The notes below the pieces were generated by a model. It ran no database searches. It saw nothing but the letters and a program-made list of their open reading frames with translations, and was not told the origin of the DNA. This document shows positions 17,744 to 28,734 of a DNA stretch of 64,000 bases, in pieces. Source of the DNA: Clostridium chauvoei (GTDB taxonomy: Bacteria > Bacillota > Clostridia > Clostridiales > Clostridiaceae). The number at the start of each line of letters is the position of its first letter. Within the stretch, counting starts at the first letter, position 1. Position numbers and translations under genes: made by a program. The stretch spans positions 372,001 through 436,000 of the forward strand of contig NZ_CP018624.1 in NCBI RefSeq assembly GCF_002327185.1, given 5' to 3'.

Positions 17744-18736
17744 ATGGATAATGAGATTGTTAGATTTGGGGTTATAGGTACTAATAATATTACAGAATGG
17801 TTCTTAAAAGGGGCTAAAGATGTAAAGAGGTTTAAATTAGAAGCTGTTTATTCAAGGACAGAAGAAAAAGCAAAAGCTTTTGGTGGTAAATATGGAGTTA
17901 AAAATATATTTACAAATCTAGAAGAAATGGCAAAGAGTAATTTAATAGATGCAGTATATATAGCATCTCCTAATGCATTACATGCTAAGCAAACTATTCT
18001 ATTTCTAGAAAATAACAAACATGTTTTATGTGAAAAGGCTTTTGCTTCTAATGAAAAAGAAGTAAATGAAATGATAAAAAAAGCTAGAGAAAATAATGTT
18101 GTTTTAATGGAAGCTATGAAAACTACATTATTTCCAAACTTTAAGTTAATAAAAGATAATTTACATAAGATAGGTAAGGTAAGAAGATATTTTGCAAGCT
18201 TTTGTCAATATTCTTCAAGGTATGATAAATATAAAGCAGGAGAAGTTTTAAATGCTTTTAAACCAGAATTATCAAATGGATCATTAATGGATATAGGGGT
18301 TTACTGTATAGCACCAATGGTTAATCTTTTTGGTAAGCCAAATACAGTTAAAGCAACTGCAATGATGCTTGAATCAGGTGTAGATGGTGAAGGTAGCTTA
18401 ATATTAGGATATGATGATATGGATGGAGTAGTAATATACTCTAAAATAAGTAATTCATATCTTCCATCAGAAATTCAAGGAGAAAAAGGAAGTATAATAA
18501 TAGATAAAATAAATGCTTTTAATAATGTGAAGATAATATACAGAGATGGAAATACAGAAGAAATTTCGGTAAATCAAAAAGAAGATGATATGTGTTATGA
18601 AATAGAGGAATTTATAAATTTAATTTTAAATAAAAAATTAGAATCAGATGTAAATACTCTAGAAAATTCTAGAATAGTTATGAAAATAATGGATGAAGCC
18701 CGTAAACAAATAGGATTAAGGTATATAGCCGATTAG
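17744..18736 (+). CDS. Gfo/Idh/MocA family oxidoreductase
   Basis: A 330-residue NAD(P)-dependent oxidoreductase. The Rossmann half (about 1-120) has FGVIGTNNITEWFLKGAKDV and the conserved VLCEKAFASNEKEV, where the EK lysine is the family's catalytic or cofactor-contacting residue. The C-terminal half shows the GSLMDIGVYCIAPMVNLFG motif found in this family. The substrate is probably a sugar or polyol derivative but cannot be assigned. It stands alone just upstream of ssrA. Confidence 0.88.
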   Translation: MDNEIVRFGVIGTNNITEWFLKGAKDVKRFKLEAVYSRTEEKAKAFGGKYGVKNIFTNLEEMAKSNLIDAVYIASPNALHAKQTILFLENNKHVLCEKAFASNEKEVNEMIKKARENNVVLMEAMKTTLFPNFKLIKDNLHKIGKVRRYFASFCQYSSRYDKYKAGEVLNAFKPELSNGSLMDIGVYCIAPMVNLFGKPNTVKATAMMLESGVDGEGSLILGYDDMDGVVIYSKISNSYLPSEIQGEKGSIIIDKINAFNNVKIIYRDGNTEEISVNQKEDDMCYEIEEFINLILNKKLESDVNTLENSRIVMKIMDEARKQIGLRYIAD

Positions 18737-18839: not shown

Positions 18840-19192
18840 GGGGGCGTTTTGGCTTCGACGGGGGTAAGATGGGTTTGATAAGCGGGTGGAGGCAAGCATG
18901 TCACCTCCTTAATAAAGTATGCATTAAAGATAAACGCAGAAGACAATTTTGCATTAGCAGCTTAATATAAGCTACTCATCAGTCCGGGATGCCCACGTTT
19001 CGGGTAGCTGGTGTCATAGAGTGGGAAACGAAGTCTAACAAAGCTTTGAGTTAGAGGGGTATTTATGAAGCTAGGAAATAGGAAGTTTGTTTGTGAGCAA
19101 CCTAGGACCGAAACCTTAATCACAAACTACACTCGTAGAAATTCAGATTGGTCTGCTTTCGGACACGGGTTCGACACCCGTCGCCTCCACCA
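18840..19192 (+). ncRNA. ssrA: Transfer-messenger RNA (tmRNA, 10Sa RNA)
   Basis: tmRNA rescues stalled ribosomes and adds a degradation tag. The 5' end GGGGGCG (18840-18846) pairs with CGCCTCC before ACCA at the 3' end. GGCTTCGACGGGGGT is the conserved 5' tRNA-like part, and GGACACGGGTTCGACACCCG gives the T arm. The tag frame runs from GCA 18936 to TAA 18963-18965 and encodes AEDNFALAA. Pseudoknot-like stems lie between tag and T arm. The last 11 bases of the gene, from the acceptor stem through CCA, are repeated twice downstream, at the ends of two inserted cassettes. Confidence 0.97.
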
Positions 19193-19193
19193 A
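19181..19193 (+). repeat. att-like site 1 (tmRNA 3' end, left junction of cassette 1)
   Basis: TCGCCTCCACCAA is the tmRNA 3' end and recurs exactly at 22250-22262 and 28382-28394. Tyrosine integrases commonly use the ssrA 3' end as attB, and this repeat marks the left junction. Confidence 0.75.
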
Positions 19194-19226
19194 AAAATCC
19201 ACGATAGTAATATCGTGGATTTTTAT
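19194..19226 (+). terminator. Terminator directly after ssrA (cassette 1 left end)
   Basis: AAAATCCACGATA / TATCGTGGATTTT hairpin with a four-base loop and T tail. A near-identical hairpin follows the second att copy. Confidence 0.88.
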
Positions 19227-19254
19227 TGTTGTAAAAAGGTACAAATGATATAAT
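19226..19254 (+). promoter_or_regulatory. Probable promoter of cassette 1 ABC-3C operon
   Basis: TTGTTG (19226-19231) and TATAAT (19249-19254) are spaced by 17 bases, 57 bases before the first gene and just after the terminator. Confidence 0.55.
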
Positions 19255-19311
19255 TTTTACTATAGAAGGTATTAGATTAACTATTACAAAGTATGATAAA
19301 GTGGGGAAAAG

Positions 19312-20280
19312 ATGGATAAGTATGATTATATAGAGGGAATAATGATAGCTCAGAGAGGTATAACTGGGATTAATTATCAAAAATGTTTGAGAGATATTTT
19401 AAAGAGATATTATAAGTATAAAAATAAAACATATGAAATGCCAGATGCTTATGGCGGGGATGATAAAAATGATGGATGGGTAGTTGAGGATGCTTTATTT
19501 TATCAAGTATTTGCACCTACTAGATTGAAAGAATCGTTAAGAAAAGAAATGCAAAATAAGTTTTCTGATGATTTAGAAGGATTAATAAAAAAAGTATATA
19601 AAGAAGGTAAATGGAATGGGCAAATTAAGAAATTTATTTTTCTTGTAAGTACTTTTGATGGAGATTTACCTCATGATAGTGAAAGATTTTTTGAAAATAA
19701 GGTTAATGATTTGAAGAGAATATATAATATAAGTTTTGATTATGAAGTAACTAATGGGGAATACATAAGAGATATATTATATGAGATTGAAGATATAAAG
19801 GTATTGGAACAAATATCATCTCAAATGAGGATTAGAGGACTGATAGATTATAACGCTATTACTGAAGAACTTATTATAAATTTAATAGATGAAATAGCAG
19901 GAAATATAATTACTAAATATATGACTAATGATACAATCAATACATATAATAGAGTATCAAGTCCTAGAAAAATAGAGATTAATAAATTGGATGAAAAGAA
20001 GGATGAAATTGAAGCTATAATTGAAAAATTAGATATAGTAGAGAATGCAATAAATACAATAAACCAAGATATCTTAAGTGAGGACAGGTTTGAACGGGTT
20101 AAGGGAGCAATAATAAGGAGTTATAGCGAATTGTGTTCAGAATTATCTGGTGTTGAATTGTATGATAAAATTATAGAGGAAGCATTAAAGTTTACAAATA
20201 ATAAATCAGGTAAAAGTGGTCCAGTAAAATTTTTAATTGTATATGTTTTTGATAAATGTGATATATTTGAAAAAGAATAG
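19312..20280 (+). CDS. ABC-three-component system protein (CTD component), system 1
   Basis: The 322-residue protein occupies the first position of a three-gene ABC-3C set. Residues 47-69 read YGGDDKNDGWVVEDA then LFYQVFAP. This resembles the N-terminal signature of many ABC-3C C-terminal-domain proteins and is compatible with a degenerate restriction-endonuclease-like fold (Asp54, Gln65), though a full D-ExK set is not visible. The last 100 residues (ELCSELSGVELYDKIIEEAL, then PVKFLIVYVFDKCDIFE) look like the ABC-3C C-terminal domain proposed to dock to the ATPase. Cytosolic, no membrane segment. A role in phage or plasmid defence is inferred from the family. GTGGGGAAAAG precedes the ATG. 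Confidence 0.75.
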   Translation: MDKYDYIEGIMIAQRGITGINYQKCLRDILKRYYKYKNKTYEMPDAYGGDDKNDGWVVEDALFYQVFAPTRLKESLRKEMQNKFSDDLEGLIKKVYKEGKWNGQIKKFIFLVSTFDGDLPHDSERFFENKVNDLKRIYNISFDYEVTNGEYIRDILYEIEDIKVLEQISSQMRIRGLIDYNAITEELIINLIDEIAGNIITKYMTNDTINTYNRVSSPRKIEINKLDEKKDEIEAIIEKLDIVENAINTINQDILSEDRFERVKGAIIRSYSELCSELSGVELYDKIIEEALKFTNNKSGKSGPVKFLIVYVFDKCDIFEKE

Positions 20281-20298
20281 TATAAGGAGGGATGAACA

Positions 20299-20571
20299 AT
20301 GATCTTACCTAATAAATATGTGATATTAAGTGAGAGTTATATTGGCATTAGCGCATTAATATTAGATACATTATTAAATAAAAAAATGAAAATAGATAAG
20401 TTGTGGAATAATTTTGAAAAAAAATATGTTAAAACCAATATAGTTAAAAACCCTCCGACATATCAAAAGTTTATATATGTAATAGAGTTTATGTATCTTT
20501 GTGGAATGATATCTTATACGGAAGGAGGGGAAATTTTAAATGAAAATATTGAATTTAAAGATAATAAATAA
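20299..20571 (+). CDS. ABC-three-component system middle component, system 1
   Basis: A 90-residue helical protein in the middle position. Its start, MILPNKYVILSESYIGISALIL, resembles the class I recall as middle component 6. Such middle components are small winged-helix-like proteins thought to bridge the effector and the ATPase. AAGGAGGG precedes the ATG by about 7 bases. The gene overlaps the ATPase gene by 32 bases, so translation is coupled. Function is by association only. Confidence 0.75.
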   Translation: MILPNKYVILSESYIGISALILDTLLNKKMKIDKLWNNFEKKYVKTNIVKNPPTYQKFIYVIEFMYLCGMISYTEGGEILNENIEFKDNK

Positions 20572-22207
20572 GGAAGATATTATATTAAGAGACATAAATT
20601 TTAATGAAAATGGTATTTCATATATTTATGGAGATATACAAGATCCCAAAAATAAAAGGGGAACGAGTAACAGTTTAGGAAAGACGTTATTGTTAAAATT
20701 TATTAATTATATATATGGTGCAAATGAGGACTCTTCGATTTCTAAAGGTGAGTTGAATGGATATAAGTTGAGTGCTACAATAAAATATAATGGAAAAGAG
20801 CAATATGTTTCCAGAATAATTGGAAATTCAAAAGAAATTACATTAGATGGTAAAGTGAAGACTTTAGGTGAGTATAAGGATTTGTTAAACATAGATAGAG
20901 GACTTTATAGTAAGCAAATTATAATAAATAAAAAATCTAGCATAATCAGTTTCAATTCTAATCCAAATAAGGAAGATAATATTAATTTTATCAATTTATT
21001 AAATATTGATGGAATTATTAATAATATAAATGAAATTTATAAGGCGCAGAATAAAATAAAGAGTTTAAAGAATAATAAAATGGAACTAATAAGTCTTTAT
21101 GATGGCATAAAGAGTGATACAATTGATGAAGAAATTTATTTTGTTGAAAAAGAAGTGAATAAACTTGAAAGTCAGATTGAAGAAGTTTCTAATAAGATTA
21201 AGTGTATTGAAATATCAGGGTTACAAAGAAATGTAATAGAAGAATATGAAATTAAGAACAAAGAATTAAAAAAATTAAATACTTTAATAAATAGATTAAA
21301 TTTAGAATTAGAGAGATTAACTAAATTTATTGAGGATTCTAATAAAATAGATATAACAAGTGAACATATAATTGCAATATATAATAAATCTATGATAGAG
21401 GTACCACAATTAGTTAAAAAAAAGCTTAAAGATGTAGAAGTCTTTCATAAAAAGGTTTATGAAGAGAGAAAAGATTTTCTTGGCAAAAAGAAAGAGGAAA
21501 TTCAGAAAGAAATTATAGAAAAAGAAGAAAAGACTTCTAAGTTAGCTAAACAAATAGATAAGTTAGGTGAAATTTTAGCAACAAATCAAATATATCAAGA
21601 ATCTGTAATGTTATATGAAGATTTTAATAATAAACTTCAGAATTTGAAATTTAATCAAGGAAAACTATCTCAAATAAAAGAAATTGATGATGCTATTATG
21701 ACAGAGGATAGTAAGTTAACTGATAATTTCGAAAGCTCTAGCGAAGAATTGAAAAAGTATTATAGTATAATTGAAGAGTATAGAGATTATATATATAATA
21801 TTACTAAAGATATATATGATGAAAATGTAAATTCATATTTTGATATAAAGATTAGGAAAAAACATCAAACAAGCAGACCTCTAAACATTGAATTTACTTT
21901 GAAGGGGGATACTGGGGAAGGTGTAAATGAGGTTAAGAAAAATATAGTTGATTATTTAATATTAAAATATAACAATATTATTGATATATTAATACAAGAT
22001 TCGGCTTGTTATAATGGAATAGATCCTAGACAAGTATGTGGACTATTACGAAATTTAAGTGAATTCTCATCGGAATTAAATAAACAAACTATAATAGCTA
22101 TAAATAAGTATCAACTAGGAGATAATACAGAATTTATAAATAAAGTAATAGAAAATAGCGCAATAATTTTATCAGAAAAAGATAAATTATTGAAGTTTAA
22201 TTTTTAA
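20540..22207 (+). CDS. ABC-3C ATPase with DUF2326 domain, system 1
   Basis: A 555-residue SMC/RecN-like ATPase. The N terminus holds an atypical Walker A (GTSNSLGKT, residues 41-49, Lys48). A long coiled-coil arm follows (about 165-420), rich in Lys, Glu and Asn. The C-terminal head (about 430-555) contains the DUF2326-type stretch IDILIQDSACYNGIDPRQVCGLL, where D and S stand in for a Walker B region. AAGGAGGGG at 20522-20530 fixes ATG 20540. DUF2326 proteins are the usual ATPases of ABC-3C systems. It presumably senses DNA or nucleoprotein and activates the partner proteins. Confidence 0.82.
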   Translation: MKILNLKIINKEDIILRDINFNENGISYIYGDIQDPKNKRGTSNSLGKTLLLKFINYIYGANEDSSISKGELNGYKLSATIKYNGKEQYVSRIIGNSKEITLDGKVKTLGEYKDLLNIDRGLYSKQIIINKKSSIISFNSNPNKEDNINFINLLNIDGIINNINEIYKAQNKIKSLKNNKMELISLYDGIKSDTIDEEIYFVEKEVNKLESQIEEVSNKIKCIEISGLQRNVIEEYEIKNKELKKLNTLINRLNLELERLTKFIEDSNKIDITSEHIIAIYNKSMIEVPQLVKKKLKDVEVFHKKVYEERKDFLGKKKEEIQKEIIEKEEKTSKLAKQIDKLGEILATNQIYQESVMLYEDFNNKLQNLKFNQGKLSQIKEIDDAIMTEDSKLTDNFESSSEELKKYYSIIEEYRDYIYNITKDIYDENVNSYFDIKIRKKHQTSRPLNIEFTLKGDTGEGVNEVKKNIVDYLILKYNNIIDILIQDSACYNGIDPRQVCGLLRNLSEFSSELNKQTIIAINKYQLGDNTEFINKVIENSAIILSEKDKLLKFNF

Positions 22208-22225
22208 AATACGGATATTAAATTT

Positions 22226-22262
22226 ATGGTGGATTTTAAAGGTTACGTATCGCCTCCACCAA
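22226..22262 (+). repeat. att-like site 2 (right end of cassette 1, left junction of cassette 2)
   Basis: A 37-base stretch from ATGGTGGATTTTAAAGGTTA to TCGCCTCCACCAA. It matches 28358-28394 with one mismatch. The last 13 bases equal the tmRNA 3' end. Inside it TGGTGGA (22227-22233) and TCCACCA (22255-22261) form an inverted pair, like integrase core sites. Confidence 0.82.
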
Positions 22263-22263
22263 T

Positions 22264-22296
22264 AAATCCACGACAGAAATGTCGTGGATTTTTTTA
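22264..22296 (+). terminator. Terminator at the left end of cassette 2
   Basis: AAATCCACGACA / TGTCGTGGATTT hairpin with loop GAAA and T tail. It differs from the hairpin after ssrA by a compensated base-pair change (A-T to C-G type), so the stem is conserved. Confidence 0.88.
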
Positions 22297-22394
22297 TGTG
22301 TATTATGTTGATAAAAAGGGAAATATATTTAAATTGGTTGTTTTATATAGTAAAATATAGTTATATGAAATAATGAGAAAATATGGAGGCAATG

Positions 22395-23360
22395 GTGAGT
22401 ATAGAGATTAGAGTTGAAAAAGCCTTTAATGGAGATTGTATTTGGTTAAGATATGGAGGAAGAGAGAAGGCTAATATTATAATTGATTCAGGACCAGGAA
22501 TTTTTGAGAGAGGTTTTAAAAAGGTAATAGATGATATAAAGGAAAAAAAGGAGGAGGTAAATCTATTAATTCTTACGCATATAGATAATGACCATATTTT
22601 GGGAGCGAAAAACTATATAGCTAAAAATGATTGTGAAGTAATAAGAAAAATATGGTTAAATGGTGAAGGTGTAAAGGTATACAGTACTAATCAGACACTG
22701 TCACCAAAAAATGTAGGAAAATTAGTAGAAGTTATTAAGGAAAAGGGAATAGAATTAATAACTCCAATATATGAAGGGTATGAGGATATAATTAATGGAG
22801 GGGAACTAAAAGTGATTACTCCTAAAAAGGAATCTGTTTTAGAAGTAGCAAAATTAGTTGATAAGTTTAATTTGAATTCAAGTAATTCTACATATACAGA
22901 TTTAGAAACACTTTATTTAGAGGATAAATATGAAGAAGAAAATACACCTACTAATAAGGCATCGATATCTGTTGTTTTTAAATATGAAGATAAAAAAATA
23001 GCTTTTTTAGGCGATTCAGTTGCTACTGATGTAATAGAAGGATTAAATAAATATTTTAGTGGAGATGAAATGGATTTAGTTAAAATAGCTCATCATGGTA
23101 GTAAACACAATACAAATTGTGATTTAATAAGAAAATTAGGTTCAAAAAAATTTGTTATAAGCAAAAAAAATAAGGTTGATAAAGAGACTATAGCAAGAAT
23201 AGTAAATTGTTGCGAAAAATCTGAAATATATTGTAATTATAATTGGTGGAGAAATAGAAATTATTTTAGTGAAAATGATAAATTAAGATATATTGATACA
23301 GGAAATTTATCTATAGATGAAAAAAATCTAATATTAATTTCTGATGGGGAGAGTTTATAG
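22395..23360 (+). CDS. MBL-fold hydrolase, ABC-3C system 2
   Basis: A 321-residue metallo-beta-lactamase-fold protein of the ComEC/Rec2-like type. It begins SIEIRVEKAFNGDCI and has the metal motif HIDNDH (HxDxDH, residues 62-67), the Asp in FLGDSV and the His pair in IAHHGSKHN. These ligands suggest an active hydrolase, perhaps of nucleic acid. I chose GTG 22395 because GGAGG at 22385-22389 is correctly spaced; ATG 22383 overlaps that site. The next gene starts directly after the stop. It is the first gene of a four-gene operon ending with an SMC-like ATPase. Confidence 0.82.
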   Translation: MSIEIRVEKAFNGDCIWLRYGGREKANIIIDSGPGIFERGFKKVIDDIKEKKEEVNLLILTHIDNDHILGAKNYIAKNDCEVIRKIWLNGEGVKVYSTNQTLSPKNVGKLVEVIKEKGIELITPIYEGYEDIINGGELKVITPKKESVLEVAKLVDKFNLNSSNSTYTDLETLYLEDKYEEENTPTNKASISVVFKYEDKKIAFLGDSVATDVIEGLNKYFSGDEMDLVKIAHHGSKHNTNCDLIRKLGSKKFVISKKNKVDKETIARIVNCCEKSEIYCNYNWWRNRNYFSENDKLRYIDTGNLSIDEKNLILISDGESL

Positions 23361-24725
23361 ATGATTATAGAGAATGAATTACAAAATTTTTCAGTTAGAA
23401 TAGAAAGCTTTAAATCAGAAAGTAATAATGAATTATTAGGAAGTGGAATATGGTGGGAACCAGAGGAAACTTCGGAGTATATATACATATTTACTGCGGC
23501 ACATGTGGTATTAGATAAAAAAGATATAGTTGTTAGATATATAGATGAAAATCAAAATGAATTAGAGGTTAGAATAGAGGATAATAATATAGCTTATCAT
23601 AAAGATAAAAAAATAATAGAAGGAGAATTACCAAGTCGAGATGTTGCTGTTCTAAGATGTAAAAGGCAGGAGGCTAATAAAGCAATTGTGAATACATACA
23701 AATTACAAAAGGTGGAAAATTTAAAGAGCAATAGGGAGATGATTTTTAGCGGATTTCCAGATGCTCTACATCAAAAGAGTTCGTTTATCTTTTCTAATAG
23801 AATTGTAAATGCTACTTTAGGAAATATAGATAAGCGAGAAAAGAGATTTACTTATGGAATTTCATCTTCAGTGATAGTTAATCCATATGAAGCTAATGAG
23901 CAATTGATTGGTTTTTCTGGTGCAGGTATATTCTTGAATGATAATTCAGAACTTTTATTATTAGGGATAAATAGTAATAGTCTTGGTAAACAGGCTGATT
24001 TAGGTACTTGTGCTGCTATGTCATCTGAATTAATAGTTGAGATATGTGAAGAAAAAAAATGGGATATACCTATTATAGCAAATAGTGTGATAGGGAATTT
24101 AGAAGATGCTATTGAAAATTTTTTAGATGAGATAGATAATGATGAACTACAGGAAATAATGAAAGAAATAATAGAGAACGATTTTGAAAAAGTAATTAAA
24201 GGTGATTTTTGCGGTATTTCTAAGGAATGTGAAAAAGCTAATTGTTCACATGAGTGTCAAACATTTAGGAATTATTTGTTAATTATTCTATGTATACTAA
24301 AATATTTAAATGATTCAATTAAATTTGAGAAAGCTTGGATAGAAAATGAAGGTGAAAGAATACCAGTAAAGTATATATGCTGTGATGGAGAATTACAATT
24401 AAATAAAGTAACTTTAAGTAGTTTTATAAATTCTTTGAAAAATGACTATCTTATAAATAATAAAATAGATGAGAAAAGTTTAATTTTATGGGGAACCAAG
24501 AAACCAGTTAAGGGGATAGAGAAATATTGCACTCCAAAAAATTTTAGAAGGATTATAAAAGATATAAAAGGAACATATACATCAGGTAGCAGATTTGATA
24601 TAAAAAGAGGTCTTAGCCAACCTAAGGATTTAGCGATTATTGAAATTAGTACATTAATTGAAAAAATTAATGATCATACACTAGAAGATATGGTTAATCT
24701 TATAAAAGAAAGCCTTGCAAATTAA
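23361..24725 (+). CDS. Trypsin-like protease with ABC-3C C-terminal region, system 2
   Basis: The 454-residue protein starts with a chymotrypsin-fold protease domain (about 1-235). The catalytic triad is visible as His48 (FTAAHVV), Asp94 (SRDVAVL) and Ser186 (GFSGAGIF). No signal peptide is present, so it acts in the cytosol. The second half (about 240-454) contains a Cys cluster (CGISKECEKANCSHECQ) and resembles ABC-3C C-terminal parts that attach to the ATPase. A protease plus an MBL protein makes a conditional-killing or defence effector set plausible. The substrate is unknown. Confidence 0.8.
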   Translation: MIIENELQNFSVRIESFKSESNNELLGSGIWWEPEETSEYIYIFTAAHVVLDKKDIVVRYIDENQNELEVRIEDNNIAYHKDKKIIEGELPSRDVAVLRCKRQEANKAIVNTYKLQKVENLKSNREMIFSGFPDALHQKSSFIFSNRIVNATLGNIDKREKRFTYGISSSVIVNPYEANEQLIGFSGAGIFLNDNSELLLLGINSNSLGKQADLGTCAAMSSELIVEICEEKKWDIPIIANSVIGNLEDAIENFLDEIDNDELQEIMKEIIENDFEKVIKGDFCGISKECEKANCSHECQTFRNYLLIILCILKYLNDSIKFEKAWIENEGERIPVKYICCDGELQLNKVTLSSFINSLKNDYLINNKIDEKSLILWGTKKPVKGIEKYCTPKNFRRIIKDIKGTYTSGSRFDIKRGLSQPKDLAIIEISTLIEKINDHTLEDMVNLIKESLAN

Positions 24726-24739
24726 ATTAGGAGTTCGAA

Positions 24740-25299
24740 ATGATAAATATAAATAAAGATATAGAATTAATAAAAGAAAATATTGAATGTGATAGAGTAA
24801 AAGTTGTACGTTTTGAAGAAAAAATTAAAATAATAATAGAAAAGAATATAAACTAAATATAATATGCTGTTCTTTTGATAACGAGCAAGATTTAAAAGAT
24901 TACTGGAGAATAATAGTTGATAATGTAGCTTTATATATACAAAGTAAATTAGAAAAAGTTATAGAGCTTTATAATGTTTATATAATTTTTTTTATCGATG
25001 ATATTAATGAAGAACTATTATATAAAATAGAGCAAGATAAGTATTCATCTAGAAAGATAATAATTAAAAAAGCTATGCCTGAATCTGAAGAAAAATTAAA
25101 GTCTGTAGTAAACAAGAGATTATTTTATTTTAATATAGAAAAAGCAGTAAATAATTTTTCTATACTAGAAATATTAAACAATTGTGAAAAAGAGTTTTAT
25201 GAATATATAGATAGTAGAGACTTGCTAAAGGATGAGAATATAGATGAAATTGTAAATATCTTAAATAAGAATAATTTAGGAGGTGATTTTATTGAGTAA
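24740..25299 (+). pseudogene. ABC-3C system 2 middle component, single-base frameshift
   Basis: ATG 24740 follows TTAGGAG. Its frame stops at TAA 24854-24856 after 38 codons. The -1 frame is open from about 24829 to TAA 25297-25299 and lacks an early start. One extra A in the AAAA run at 24840-24843 joins them into one 186-residue protein containing NIICCSFDNEQDLKDYW. The joined product has the place and size of an ABC-3C middle component. The ATPase gene overlaps its end by 8 bases. It is either broken, phase-variable, or affected by a homopolymer error. The downstream frame alone could be read from an internal ATG at 25075 (74 residues). Confidence 0.7.
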
Positions 25300-28200
25300 A
25301 ATTTCAAAAGTTAAGCTATCAAATTTTCGTATATTTACAGATGATTTTAATCAAGTAGATTTTAATAATGAAAATGGATTGCCAGCTGATTTTATATGTA
25401 TTTATGGACAAAATGGAATGGGAAAGACTTCATTTTTTGATGGAATAGAATGGTTTTCATCTGGAACAATTTACAGATTTGAAGATAAAAATATGAAAAA
25501 GGAAATTAAAAGATATAAAGGATATGTTCTTTCAAATAGAAATATCGATGGAAATAATGATAAATCGTATGTTGAAGTTAATTATTCAGATAATTGTACT
25601 GTAAAAAGAACTGTTACAAAATCTAGTAAAGATATAAATGAAAAAGGATATAGAGATTATAATAAGGGAAGATTAAATCCTCAAAAATTTAAAATGAATA
25701 TAATGGCCAAGCAGATATTACCTCATAATAAAATAGATAGTTTTATACACGCAAATAGTCCTAATGATAAATATGAAGAATGGGGAAAGTTTTGGGATAG
25801 TGATGGAAGTCAAAGAAAATTATTTACTAAGGTCTATAAAGTTAAAAAGTTAATTGCCAAAAGAATTGATTTAATCAAGAGAGATTGTGAAGATGCTATT
25901 GAAGAATTAAGAGAATTGACAATAAGCGATGAAAAAATAAAAGAAATAAATAATAAAATAAATGATTTCAATATTTTAGAGACAATAAGTGGATTAAAGT
26001 TAAAGGAAGTAATAAAATCTGAGAATGAAATAATCAATATTCCTGATAAAAATAAAATACGAGAATATAAAAATAGTGTAAATAAAATAATTGATAATGA
26101 AAAATTAAATATTGATAAACTTATATATCTATTGAATTATTACGGGGAGGACTATACTCAAAAAAAAATAGAGCTGAATAATAAAATCAAAAAGATAATT
26201 GATAATATTGATAGATATAAGCAATTGAATGAGGCCGGAGATATATGGTTTAAAGAGTATAATCAATGGAAGCAATTGGACTCTAACCTAAAATTAATTA
26301 ATCGACAATTAAAGTTTAAATTATCAAGTCTAGAATTTAAATATAAAGAGTTAGATAATATTAATGAAGAAATAAATAAGTTGAAATCTTCTTTTGAAAT
26401 TTTAAATGATAAAGAAAATTACTTTTTAACTAAATGTAAGTTTATTGAAGGAATAATAAATGAAATATCTAATAAAAAGTATAAGAATAAAGTAAATATT
26501 GATACTTTACAAAAACTTGATATTATAAAAAAACATAATCAAAAGATAATTAGTAATTTAGAAGAAGCTAAACTGAATAAGGAAAGAAAGAATTTTGATA
26601 TACATATATCATCAGTAGTTGAAGATGATGAGAGATTTATTTTATTAAAAAAAATATACATTGATAAGTATAAGAACTTAAAGAATAAAATTGAAAATAA
26701 TTCTAAAGAAGTTATTAAGAAAAAAGAACTATATTTTTCATGCAAGAAAAGTTTTGATGAATTACAGAATATACTTATGCAGGTTAAAGGTTACATTGAA
26801 AAAGAAGATTTAAATAATTGTCCAGTATGTCATACCCCTTTTAAAGATATTGGACTATTATTATCTAAGATTAATTTAGATGAACAAAGTAATAATTGTA
26901 AAAAACTATATGATAATTATCAATTGGCATTATCACATAAAGAAAAAGCTTTAAATGAAGAAAAAGAGTTAATAGATAAATGGAATGAAGAATGTGAAAA
27001 ATATAAGGTAGTGCTTGGGGAGGAAATTTCGAATTTAACACAAAAAATAACTAGAGTTATACGTGAAAACGAAAAGTTAAAAGAGGATATAAAGTTAGAT
27101 GAATTAAAAGTTAATGAATTTAAGGAAGAGTTAGATAAAATAAGTAAATATGAAAAAGACTTTTCACAAGATTCTATTAAAGAATGGTTAAATATAATTA
27201 AGAAGTCTTACAAAAGTAAGTTAGATAAAAGTATTAGAGATAAAGAAAAATTATATCTAATGGTAAGAGAATTAGATAAAGAAAGTAGAGAATTAAAATT
27301 AAATATTAAAGAATTAGAAGATAAAAATGATGATTTTAATCAAAAAGATATTAATAAAATTTTAGTTGCTAAATTAGAAGAAATAAATACTATCAATAAG
27401 AGTAAAATAAAAGAATGGATAGATTTTGAGAAATATTATAGTTCATTAATTATTAAAAATGAAGAACTTAAAAAACAAATTAAAGATATAGATAATTATA
27501 TTAGAGGATATGAAAAAAATGATTACAAAGATATATTCAAAGAAAAATATTTAAAATATAATAAAAATAGTTATAGAGATTATATGTTACAAATATTTAA
27601 GGGGAATTATATTGATTTTAGTAATTTAATTCTTTTATGTAAAGAAAAGAAACATATTATCGAAAACCTTAAGAGAAATATTGATATATTAGACTATATT
27701 AATATTGAATTATGTAATTCTAACTATAATGAAAAATATTCTGTTATAAGTAAAAATATATCAATAAAAAAATATGAATTAAAAAAGTATGAAGCGTCTA
27801 AAAATAAAATTGATGGTATATTTTATAATCTAAAAAAATATATTGAAGAAAATATAGAAGAAGTGTTAGGAAGTAAGCCAATGAATCAAATTTATTCAAT
27901 AATAGAACCTAATAAAGAATTTAAAAAGTTAAAAATAGAGGTTTCTTTTACTAATAGTGAAGATGGAGAAGATATACCAGAATTATATTTAAAAAGTTCT
28001 GGAGATGAGAATGAAGACATTTTACCTGAATATTTTTTCAGCACAGCTCAATTAAATACAGTAGCATTGAGTATATTTTTGGGTCAGGCCTTGTCTATGG
28101 ACTTAGAGGTGAAAACTATTTTTATAGATGATCCTGTTGGACATTTTGATGATATTAATGTTTTAGCTTTTGTAGATTTATTAAGGAATATAATTAAAGA

Positions 28201-28342
28201 TGGAGAATGGCAAATAGTAATTTCAACTCATGATGAGTCATTTTATAATATTCTAAAAAATAAAATATCAGATGAGTATTATAATTCGAAATTCATTACT
28301 TTTAGTTCTGTAGGAAAATTATCTGAATCAAATATAAATTAG
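25292..28342 (+). CDS. SMC/Rad50-like ATPase of ABC-3C system 2
   Basis: A 1016-residue ATPase. An N-terminal head begins KISKVKLSNFRIF and has Walker A GQNGMGKT (residues 39-46). Long coiled coils (about 170-880) surround a zinc-hook-like CPVC (Cys510, Cys513), as in Rad50/SbcC. The C-terminal head has a signature-like region FSTAQLNTVALSIFLGQAL, Walker B TIFIDDPVGHFDD and an STHDESF switch. I chose TTG 25292 because TAGGAGG ends 8 bases before it; GTG 25283 overlaps that site. Composition is very A-rich (many Lys, Asn, Ile). It is the motor of the second system, probably recognising foreign or damaged DNA. Confidence 0.85.
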   Translation: MSKISKVKLSNFRIFTDDFNQVDFNNENGLPADFICIYGQNGMGKTSFFDGIEWFSSGTIYRFEDKNMKKEIKRYKGYVLSNRNIDGNNDKSYVEVNYSDNCTVKRTVTKSSKDINEKGYRDYNKGRLNPQKFKMNIMAKQILPHNKIDSFIHANSPNDKYEEWGKFWDSDGSQRKLFTKVYKVKKLIAKRIDLIKRDCEDAIEELRELTISDEKIKEINNKINDFNILETISGLKLKEVIKSENEIINIPDKNKIREYKNSVNKIIDNEKLNIDKLIYLLNYYGEDYTQKKIELNNKIKKIIDNIDRYKQLNEAGDIWFKEYNQWKQLDSNLKLINRQLKFKLSSLEFKYKELDNINEEINKLKSSFEILNDKENYFLTKCKFIEGIINEISNKKYKNKVNIDTLQKLDIIKKHNQKIISNLEEAKLNKERKNFDIHISSVVEDDERFILLKKIYIDKYKNLKNKIENNSKEVIKKKELYFSCKKSFDELQNILMQVKGYIEKEDLNNCPVCHTPFKDIGLLLSKINLDEQSNNCKKLYDNYQLALSHKEKALNEEKELIDKWNEECEKYKVVLGEEISNLTQKITRVIRENEKLKEDIKLDELKVNEFKEELDKISKYEKDFSQDSIKEWLNIIKKSYKSKLDKSIRDKEKLYLMVRELDKESRELKLNIKELEDKNDDFNQKDINKILVAKLEEINTINKSKIKEWIDFEKYYSSLIIKNEELKKQIKDIDNYIRGYEKNDYKDIFKEKYLKYNKNSYRDYMLQIFKGNYIDFSNLILLCKEKKHIIENLKRNIDILDYINIELCNSNYNEKYSVISKNISIKKYELKKYEASKNKIDGIFYNLKKYIEENIEEVLGSKPMNQIYSIIEPNKEFKKLKIEVSFTNSEDGEDIPELYLKSSGDENEDILPEYFFSTAQLNTVALSIFLGQALSMDLEVKTIFIDDPVGHFDDINVLAFVDLLRNIIKDGEWQIVISTHDESFYNILKNKISDEYYNSKFITFSSVGKLSESNIN

Positions 28343-28357
28343 AATAGTGAATTAAAT

Positions 28358-28394
28358 ATGGTGGATTTTAAAGGTAACGTATCGCCTCCACCAA
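28358..28394 (+). repeat. att-like site 3 (right end of cassette 2, original chromosomal junction)
   Basis: ATGGTGGATTTTAAAGGTAA to TCGCCTCCACCAA: 36 of 37 bases equal site 2, and the last 13 equal the tmRNA 3' end. Chromosomal sequence resumes after it. Confidence 0.82.
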
Positions 28395-28415
28395 ATAAGA
28401 ACGCAAGTAAGGATA

Positions 28416-28466
28416 CAATGGTAAAACCTTGAAATATCAAGGTTTGGCCATTGTATTTTGCTTTTT
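28416..28466 (+). terminator. Terminator beyond the cassettes, probably the original ssrA terminator
   Basis: A 17-base stem 28416-28432 with 28437-28453 (one mismatch: CAATGGTAAAACCTTGA / TCAAGGTTTGGCCATTG) is followed by T-rich sequence. Its place just after att 3 fits the pre-insertion end of ssrA transcription. Confidence 0.75.
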
Positions 28467-28669
28467 AAGTGAGAATCCAAATTTTAATTTGGCTATTTGA
28501 ACTTACTCATTCGACGACAATAGAAGGAGTTTCTTTTTAAAATAAACTGATTTTAATAGATAATTTAGCCACTTTTAGGTTTTTGAGTATTTGCGCACAC
28601 CACTTAGTAGAAGTGTTACTAGGGGGTGTGCATTTTTATATGTAAAGAAGAATAAACTACTGGAAAAAA
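28467..28669 (+). other. Gap before the nitroreductase operator, with one hairpin
   Basis: No gene is visible. GCACACC (28595-28601) and GGTGTGC (28625-28631) form a hairpin followed by ATTTTT, a probable terminator remnant. The rest shows nothing recognisable. Confidence 0.5.
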
Positions 28670-28734
28670 GGTTTGACATCAAACCAGTATTGATATAAGA
28701 TTAGTTTGACATCAAACTAATCTTATATCAATAC
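28670..28734. promoter_or_regulatory. Large palindromic operator upstream of the nitroreductase
   Basis: A perfect 23-base inverted repeat (28687-28709 and 28712-28734) has the centre TTTGACATCAAA. The same core palindrome GGTTTGACATCAAACC occurs again at 28670-28685. Paired TTTGA/TCAAA sites are typical for dimeric winged-helix repressors such as MarR. A marR gene lies downstream of the nitroreductase. Confidence 0.65.

Follow-up and report, generated by a model that had tools for sequence, protein, structure and literature searches.

Two units behind the tmRNA gene

The window analyzed here is a 64,000-nucleotide stretch of the Clostridium chauvoei genome (NCBI RefSeq assembly GCF_002327185.1, contig NZ_CP018624.1, positions 372,001–436,000 of the forward strand), in which the tmRNA gene ssrA is followed by two gene-carrying units, each closed by a copy of the ssrA 3' end (Table 1). 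Genomes, contigs, and loci are denoted by the prefixes G, C, and L; the window genome is G000. The 13-nt ssrA 3' end, TCGCCTCCACCAA, here called the core, occurs at three sites in the window at up to one mismatch, every one of them exact (19181, 22250, and 28382), as compared with a mean of 0.01 sites in shuffled sequence; none of 100 shuffles attained three. The recurrences at 22250 and 28382 had been noticed in an initial annotation, which was made from the sequence alone, and both are exact copies. Core copies 2 and 3 are each preceded by the same 25-nt right end, and thereby terminate a 38-nt direct repeat (22225–22262 and 28357–28394, 97% identical). A genome-wide search for this repeat at up to three mismatches, as the initial annotation had suggested, located it in only these two places in the whole 2.87-Mb genome.

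Core-to-core spacing is 3,069 bp for unit 1 and 6,132 bp for unit 2. Related terminator-like hairpins lie directly after core copies 1 and 2. Hairpins followed by T's occur at three sites in the region (1.2 expected), and each unit opens with one behind its core. The layout of each unit is thus core, left-end hairpin, cargo, right end, and core. In agreement with the initial annotation, which saw no integrase in the units, neither has a match to the recombinase models PF00589 or PF07508 (small serine recombinases and transposases were not searched there). A perfect 23-bp inverted repeat with a 2-nt loop (28687–28734) is located between the array and a nitroreductase gene.

Table 1. Features of the ssrA locus and its two units (window positions)
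Feature	Position	Strand	Basis
ssrA (tmRNA), target gene; last 12–13 nt are the proposed crossover core	18840–19192	+	Rfam RF00023
Core copy 1 (ssrA 3' end), left attachment site	19181–19193	+	exact motif match
Unit 1 left end, terminator-like hairpin behind ssrA	19193–19224	+	repeat and hairpin search
Unit 1 gene 1, ABC-3C CTD-type protein, 322 aa	19312–20280	+	PDC-M68A; CTD10 below cut-off
Unit 1 gene 2, ABC-3C middle component MC6, 90 aa	20299–20571	+	Pfam MC6
Unit 1 gene 3, SMC-like ATPase, 555 aa	20540–22207	+	DUF2326, PDC-M68B
Right end (RE) of unit 1, type A1	22225–22249	+	direct repeat, joint pattern
Core copy 2, unit 1/unit 2 joint	22250–22262	+	exact motif match
Unit 2 left end, terminator-like hairpin	22264–22291	+	repeat and hairpin search
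Unit 2 gene 1, LmuA-type metallo-beta-lactamase-fold hydrolase, 325 aa	22383–23360	+	PADLOC, Pfam
Unit 2 gene 2, LmuA-type trypsin-like protease, 454 aa	23361–24725	+	PADLOC, Pfam
Unit 2 gene 3, probable LmuC; frame split around 24840	24741–25299	+	position only
Unit 2 gene 4, LmuB SMC-like ATPase, 1019 aa	25283–28342	+	PADLOC, Pfam
Right end (RE) of unit 2, type A1	28357–28381	+	direct repeat, joint pattern
Core copy 3, right attachment site	28382–28394	+	exact motif match
Original ssrA-downstream sequence, contiguous with ssrA in empty-site genome G002	28395–28468	+	alignment

Empty and occupied sites

In G002, ssrA runs straight into sequence that is 98.9% identical over 87 bp to window positions 28382–28468, and on the other side of this site ssrA itself matches at 88.6%; the window has 9,201 bp extra. 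G002 carries the empty site, and the units of the window are insertions. Relatives compared downstream of ssrA show empty, single, and multiple insertion states. They share no single fixed block, and insertion boundaries are marked by the repeat; the two objections that the initial annotation had itself raised thus fall away. G008 and G059 are 99.8% identical on the left up to and through the core, after which they continue into unrelated units of 28.6 and 4.0 kb, respectively, which share 36 nt. To the right, the two genomes match again from the 69th nucleotide, counted from the core start, in G008, but in G059 only after another ~2.5 kb.

Cargo of the two window units

Unit 1 is an ABC three-component (ABC-3C) operon composed of a CTD-type protein, MC6, and a DUF2326 ATPase. 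The Pfam scores are 40.8 bits for MC6 (cut-off 27.2) and 93.4 for DUF2326 (cut-off 28.7), with CTD10 at 17.7, under its cut-off of 28.1; PADLOC assigns PDC-M68A and PDC-M68B. Unit 2 is a Lamassu operon of the hydrolase/protease effector type, having both LmuA and LmuB: PADLOC identifies the LmuA hydrolase, LmuA protease, and LmuB (E-values of 6.5e-61, 3.3e-32, and 8.6e-117, respectively), and the Pfam matches are Lactamase_B, Trypsin, and AAA_23, none of which is an ABC-3C model. The earlier assignment of one ABC-3C operon to each interval therefore holds for unit 1 and not for unit 2, for which the label rests on kinship between Lamassu and ABC-3C systems. By PADLOC and Pfam, the cargo resembles known Lamassu and ABC-3C systems, except that the small gene between the unit 2 protease and LmuB, a probable LmuC, is split over two reading frames. 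An intact LmuC was not found in unit 2, and a 74-aa piece of the split gene has no PADLOC match. The split means that the Lamassu system may be inactive, or else that the sequence has an indel.

Related arrays across the order

The joint, defined as right end plus 12-nt core, was sought with a degenerate pattern at up to three mismatches, with the reversed pattern as control. It occurs at 147 sites (summed over the table of genomes) in 29 of 68 genomes of the genus, and across the order in 59 of 225 genomes and 21 of 56 genera; the control gave zero in every row listed. An exact scan of a named genome collection returned 15 stretches, 13 from Clostridium and two from one 'Bacillota' metagenome-assembled genome. 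No joint was found in public viral contigs (exact pattern) or in plasmids and phages (blastn, E up to 1).

The largest array has 14 units over 83 kb (G069), and G068 has 11 joints. Arrays start at ssrA in G068 and on C11 of G033, as located by ARAGORN, and in G069 and G071, as located by tmRNA-like sequence. Units were obtained from 17 fetched array segments, and within each segment they all lie on one strand. Median length among the 59 delimited units is 4.3 kb (range 0.75–13.5 kb); this set omits intervals above 15 kb, that of G008 among them, and some of its units hold hidden joints. Among 50 units from seven genomes, 48 have no match to PF00589 or PF07508, and two have remnants of a large serine recombinase (LSR).

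One 3.3-kb unit is present in two arrays of C. beijerinckii HUN142 (G033; C11 138353–141684 and C12 117865–121199), being second in the ssrA array and first in the other. The two copies are 93.7% identical, and the main alignment stops no more than 12 nt from the unit ends. The shared unit contains a MarR-like regulator, an oxidoreductase-like gene, and a 400-aa gene (names assigned by eye), and no recombinase open reading frame (ORF) was found in it. The homology of this recombinase-less unit from core to core indicates that the unit is what moves.

Most units are compact operons, many of 2–4 kb, and operons occur on both strands. The units have 204 ORFs of 150 aa or longer, and cargo was tallied for 102 of these, sampled at about every other ORF; of the families matched (147 Pfam and 114 PADLOC), the tallies display only the 25 most frequent. 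The top Pfam families are the histidine kinase ATPase (5 proteins), radical SAM (4), and LysR (3), with the phosphotransferase system (PTS), CoA transferase, and others at two each. Each PADLOC family listed matches at most two of the 102 proteins at E≤1e-10. Individual units carry bioA/bioD/bioB/bioY-like genes (G069, 5573624–5577614) or a TOTE conflict protein (G071). Judged by eye and by these tallies, array cargo is mostly metabolism, transport, and regulation (two-component systems included), with some defence, and the defence cargo of the window is therefore one flavour among many. The initial annotation had seen minimal mobile defence cassettes. The empty site in G002, the stacking, and the unit found in two arrays bear out insertions that belong to a cassette family, but the family is not specifically defensive.

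Several arrays have further peculiarities. A cassette of G069 contains an ORF that by eye encodes a group II intron-type reverse transcriptase (L077, 16336–17751). Three arrays away from ssrA have a first core without the consensus right end (L061 6887, L070 9865, and L077 12562), which is either a secondary site or a displaced array end; the left flanks of L070 and L077 appear similar over ~120 nt by eye. At four places the right end is followed by apparently native ssrA-downstream sequence (L070 15293, L205 4677, L217 14176, and L216 12963), and on C12 of G033 further joints lie behind such native-looking sequence. Either these arrays have been rearranged, or their units have captured the native terminator. 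In L088, the tmRNA gene (18011–18287) has ~270 nt between the T-arm and the last 12 nt, as measured in this locus only; the same interruption is probably present in L081, L089, L090, and L096. It resembles the group I introns of tmRNA genes, but in L088 Rfam gave a tmRNA match only.

Structure of the joint

The consensus of 85 distinct joints consists of the right end TRGTGGATTTYAAAGGTCAYGCT, the core TCGCCTCCACCA, and the left end TRAAAYCCACGA. Because these joints were found with the pattern at up to four mismatches, conservation within the pattern is partly by construction; the left end lies outside the search pattern. At a joint between units, the right end, TCGCCTCCACCA, and left end together form an imperfect palindrome centred on the core's first base. 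Complementarity at this centre (21) is 0.48, whereas the 90 centres scored average 0.255 (sd 0.057). The base preceding the core varies among units, being mostly T and also A or C, and is G or C in ssrA. Because this base differs between units and ssrA, the crossover dinucleotide would most simply be the TC that opens the core.

A large serine recombinase as the likely helper

PF07508 matched an intact 535-aa LSR, with Resolvase, Recombinase, and zinc ribbon domains, in the G008 array, where it lies within the 28.6-kb unit; in the G069 array it matched a remnant. Such LSRs occur in relatives and not in G000. The relatives of this LSR found at 54% identity or above adjoin joints. In the genus search, 10 rows from nine genomes reach 56% identity or above, and each of them is located in an array, within an ssrA element, or beside a joint on its contig. 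This A-type LSR is intact in G008, G064, and G018, and broken in G034, G069, G068, G060, and G075; in G003 the matched stretch contains a stop and the ORF has 529 aa.

In a tree of 22 LSRs, the A group comprises nine rows (support 89/99; G175 as a 277-aa piece) and divides into the subclades A1 (96/100), A2 (100/100), and A3 (98/98). For eight of the nine, the next core joint downstream on the same strand, 1.3–9.8 kb away, has the right end typical of the subclade. This right end is GTGGATTTTAAAGGTCACG for A1 (G008 and G003), GTCGAGGGTACTANNAGTAACG for A2 (G064 and G018), and GTGGRTTTYGCNYAYYGTG for A3 (G136, G119b, G096, and G175), the A2 and A3 ends having been located by seeking a core near the LSR rather than by a pattern of their own. 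Of the broken A1 units, three (G034, G069, and G068) have a right end that can be read, and in all three it is the A1 end, which is also the end carried by the cassettes, the window units included. A3-type ends, present in 16 of 225 genomes, suggest a second cassette pool. The G119 array (L227 1470, 3336, and 19819) has A1-type and A3-type right ends mixed and two A3 LSRs.

More distant, B-type LSRs were gathered from 15 loci (43–50% identity, or as listed in the searches). Eleven of these loci adjoin ssrA or a core: G008, G059, G026 (two), G063, G091, G124, G121, G189, G134, and G095. In L098 (1754–3268) and L119 (6644–8206), B-type serine recombinase genes read through the core into the ssrA 3' end. 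The best identities to the A1 LSR in phages, plasmids, and viral contigs were only 46%, 48.5%, and 33%, respectively, so that these collections yielded no helper of phage or plasmid origin. The helper is likely an LSR, with the A1 subclade matching the cassettes. The initial annotation had proposed a helper integrase acting in trans; the units indeed have no recombinase of their own, and the likely helper is now corrected to an LSR.

Model and alternatives

We propose, at a probability of roughly two in three, that the window units are integrase-less members of a site-specific cassette family, stacked in one orientation at the ssrA 3' end by an A1 LSR acting in trans. The A1 LSR, which some arrays carry (intact in G008 and G003, broken in others), would act on an excised unit, recombining its attP-type joint with the 3' end of ssrA, and crossover would occur at the TC with which the core begins. 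The gene would be restored by the copy of its last 12 nt that the unit brings, and the unit's left-end hairpin would supply a replacement terminator, as the hairpin behind the core in each unit suggests. The products would be ssrA plus the unit left end on one side, and the unit right end plus core on the other. A further insertion would stack another unit, such that the tmRNA stays intact as the array grows, and units without a recombinase would be moved in trans. Serine integrases normally act one-way, on attP and attB; in this stacking model, the LSR would have to accept an occupied site. No A-type recombinase was found in G000, and the window array is therefore probably immobile until a helper arrives.

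A number of observations weigh against this model. We infer the recombination itself, and likewise excision and circles. A competing dyad at centre 15 scores slightly higher (0.51) than that at the core start. The match between G008 and G059 is precise on the left only, with the ~2.5 kb extra on the right of G059 having no clean joint. Several sites lie away from ssrA (7 of 13 in G071, 6 of 6 in G027, and 4 of 4 in G029), and some arrays there have a non-consensus first core. An A-type LSR or remnant occurs in only 8 of the 29 joint-bearing genus genomes and, as noted, not in G000. The A1 subclade rests on two intact and five broken LSRs, and the intact LSR of G008 is 9.5 kb from its right end, in a unit that is perhaps composite. 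For the G119a LSR, the next right end downstream (L227 3336) is A1-like, and an A3 end follows only after it (1470). Four of the 15 B-type loci (G066, G115, G051, and G046) do not adjoin ssrA or a core in the fetched stretch. Finally, right-end type and LSR descent may have been co-inherited without causation.

Each unit might instead have arrived as a full ssrA island whose LSR was later deleted, leaving immobile relics that never moved in trans. Such accretion and decay is favoured by damaged or fragmentary LSR genes that lie within arrays or next to joints (G069, G068, G034, G060, and G075), one of them in a single 10.2-kb unit (G034). However, remnants occur in just two of the 50 units examined, many units are compact 2–4-kb operons, and the recombinase-less 3.3-kb unit of HUN142 has exact ends in two arrays, which makes this explanation unlikely. 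A tyrosine integrase acting in trans is considerably less probable still. According to the Islander abstract, tmRNA genes are usual targets of tyrosine integrases, and a tyrosine recombinase adjoins the first core of one G069 array (2313506, near core 2314562). We rejected this protein as a helper, as by eye it appears to belong to an IS91-like element, a further copy of which lies elsewhere. Of the 64 PF00589 rows in G000, G068, G069, G033, and G071, 42 were looked up, and 40 of these yielded an ORF. When these 40 proteins were clustered together with one from G059 and the IS91-like one (42 in total), no array-linked family emerged; judged by eye, the shared families resemble the hsdS-shufflon, post-spo0A, XerC-like, and phage types. 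The correlation between LSR and right end favours serine recombinases. Tyrosine recombinases in L136, L140, and L168 (G000, G068, and G071) lie in type I restriction-like loci with several hsdS-like genes (by eye) and likely form a specificity shufflon. Use of the host Xer/dif system was also rejected, as the joint shows by eye no likeness to dif.

Same-direction arrays of diverse cargo behind a fixed first site would also fit a true integron, or a cluster of attC sites lacking an integrase (CALIN), served by a distant IntI. This reading is already disfavoured, and we regard it as highly improbable: no PF00589 match was found within the units examined, the 85-joint consensus has by eye no attC box of the GTTRRRY type, and units hold operons on both strands. 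Nor was an intI found beside an array among the PF00589 positions of eight genomes, the IS91-like protein of G069 being the sole array neighbour. The earlier term 'integron-like' is thus an analogy, because neither IntI nor attC was observed and each unit terminates in an attP-like site of the serine-integrase type. A defence island fixed in the chromosome, its repeats arising by chance or from terminators, is a reading to which the terminator-like hairpins in the left-end repeats might point, but it is already refuted by the empty site in G002, the zero counts of the reversed-pattern control, and the variation in content among relatives.

Relation to known systems

Tandem ssrA islands without an integration module are already known from Dehalococcoides. 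The report on them (McMurdie 2011, PMC3146451) describes genomic islands (ssrA-GIs; DsiB/DsiA) that follow ssrA in tandem, with repeats of the ssrA 3' end as their boundaries, a serine recombinase, and a conserved motif immediately upstream of every repeat; of the 31 islands, 15 have no integration module and were suggested to be cis-mobilizable. The window locus similarly has insertions at ssrA with the regenerated 3' end repeated at the far end, and the arrays share the tandem arrangement, serine recombinase, upstream motif, and module-less members. As described there (PMC3146451), the Dehalococcoides repeat is 20 bp with insertion in the T-loop, the vcr islands are ~12 kb, and a six-gene module has dsiB at the left end overlapping attL. 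In contrast, the core here is 12–13 bp at the acceptor/CCA end. The A-type LSR is oriented as ssrA and lies 1.3–9.8 kb before the right end rather than at attL, and no six-gene module with dsiB overlapping attL was found in the window units, which have no PF00589 or PF07508 match. The units are also small (median 4.3 kb), 48 of 50 examined have no match to either model, and the joint spans 21 of 56 genera. The B-type LSRs that read into the ssrA 3' end (G008, G059, and G026) are closer to the DsiB arrangement.

Staphylococcal cassette chromosome (SCC) and pseudo-SCC elements are alike in having a serine recombinase (Ccr), a restored 3' end of a single-copy gene, and composite arrays that include recombinase-less members. 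They are larger, with few per array, and ccr genes are usually present. Their target is rlmH; that of the window array is ssrA, and no LSR was found in the window units. Integrons and CALINs share the fixed primary site, the same-direction stack of promiscuous cassettes, and the separately supplied recombinase. They differ in using a tyrosine rather than a serine recombinase and attC rather than an attP-like palindrome, and the cassettes here are operons. What sets the arrays apart from these precedents is the size of the cassettes, the almost general absence of a recombinase from the units examined, a conserved joint of attP type, where the LSR and the core are placed, and their spread. A literature search at the level of titles and abstracts found no report of a Clostridium or serine-recombinase cassette array, a level that does not establish absence in print.

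Implications

The arrays may, in a wider reading that we hold tentatively and consider possible rather than probable, be the serine-recombinase counterpart of integrons: a Clostridiaceae-wide pool of small, attP-ended cassettes captured at the tmRNA gene by a shared LSR acting in trans, with the A1 and A3 pools each having its own subclade. The right-end sequence offers a means of searching for accessory genes, among them defence systems not yet recognised, and each LSR subclade, with its paired attP and natural attB, would be useful in genome engineering. If the reading is true, Clostridia own an integron-like gene-capture platform that uses a serine recombinase, which would explain the spread of compact operons (for defence, biotin, and sugar uptake) among them.

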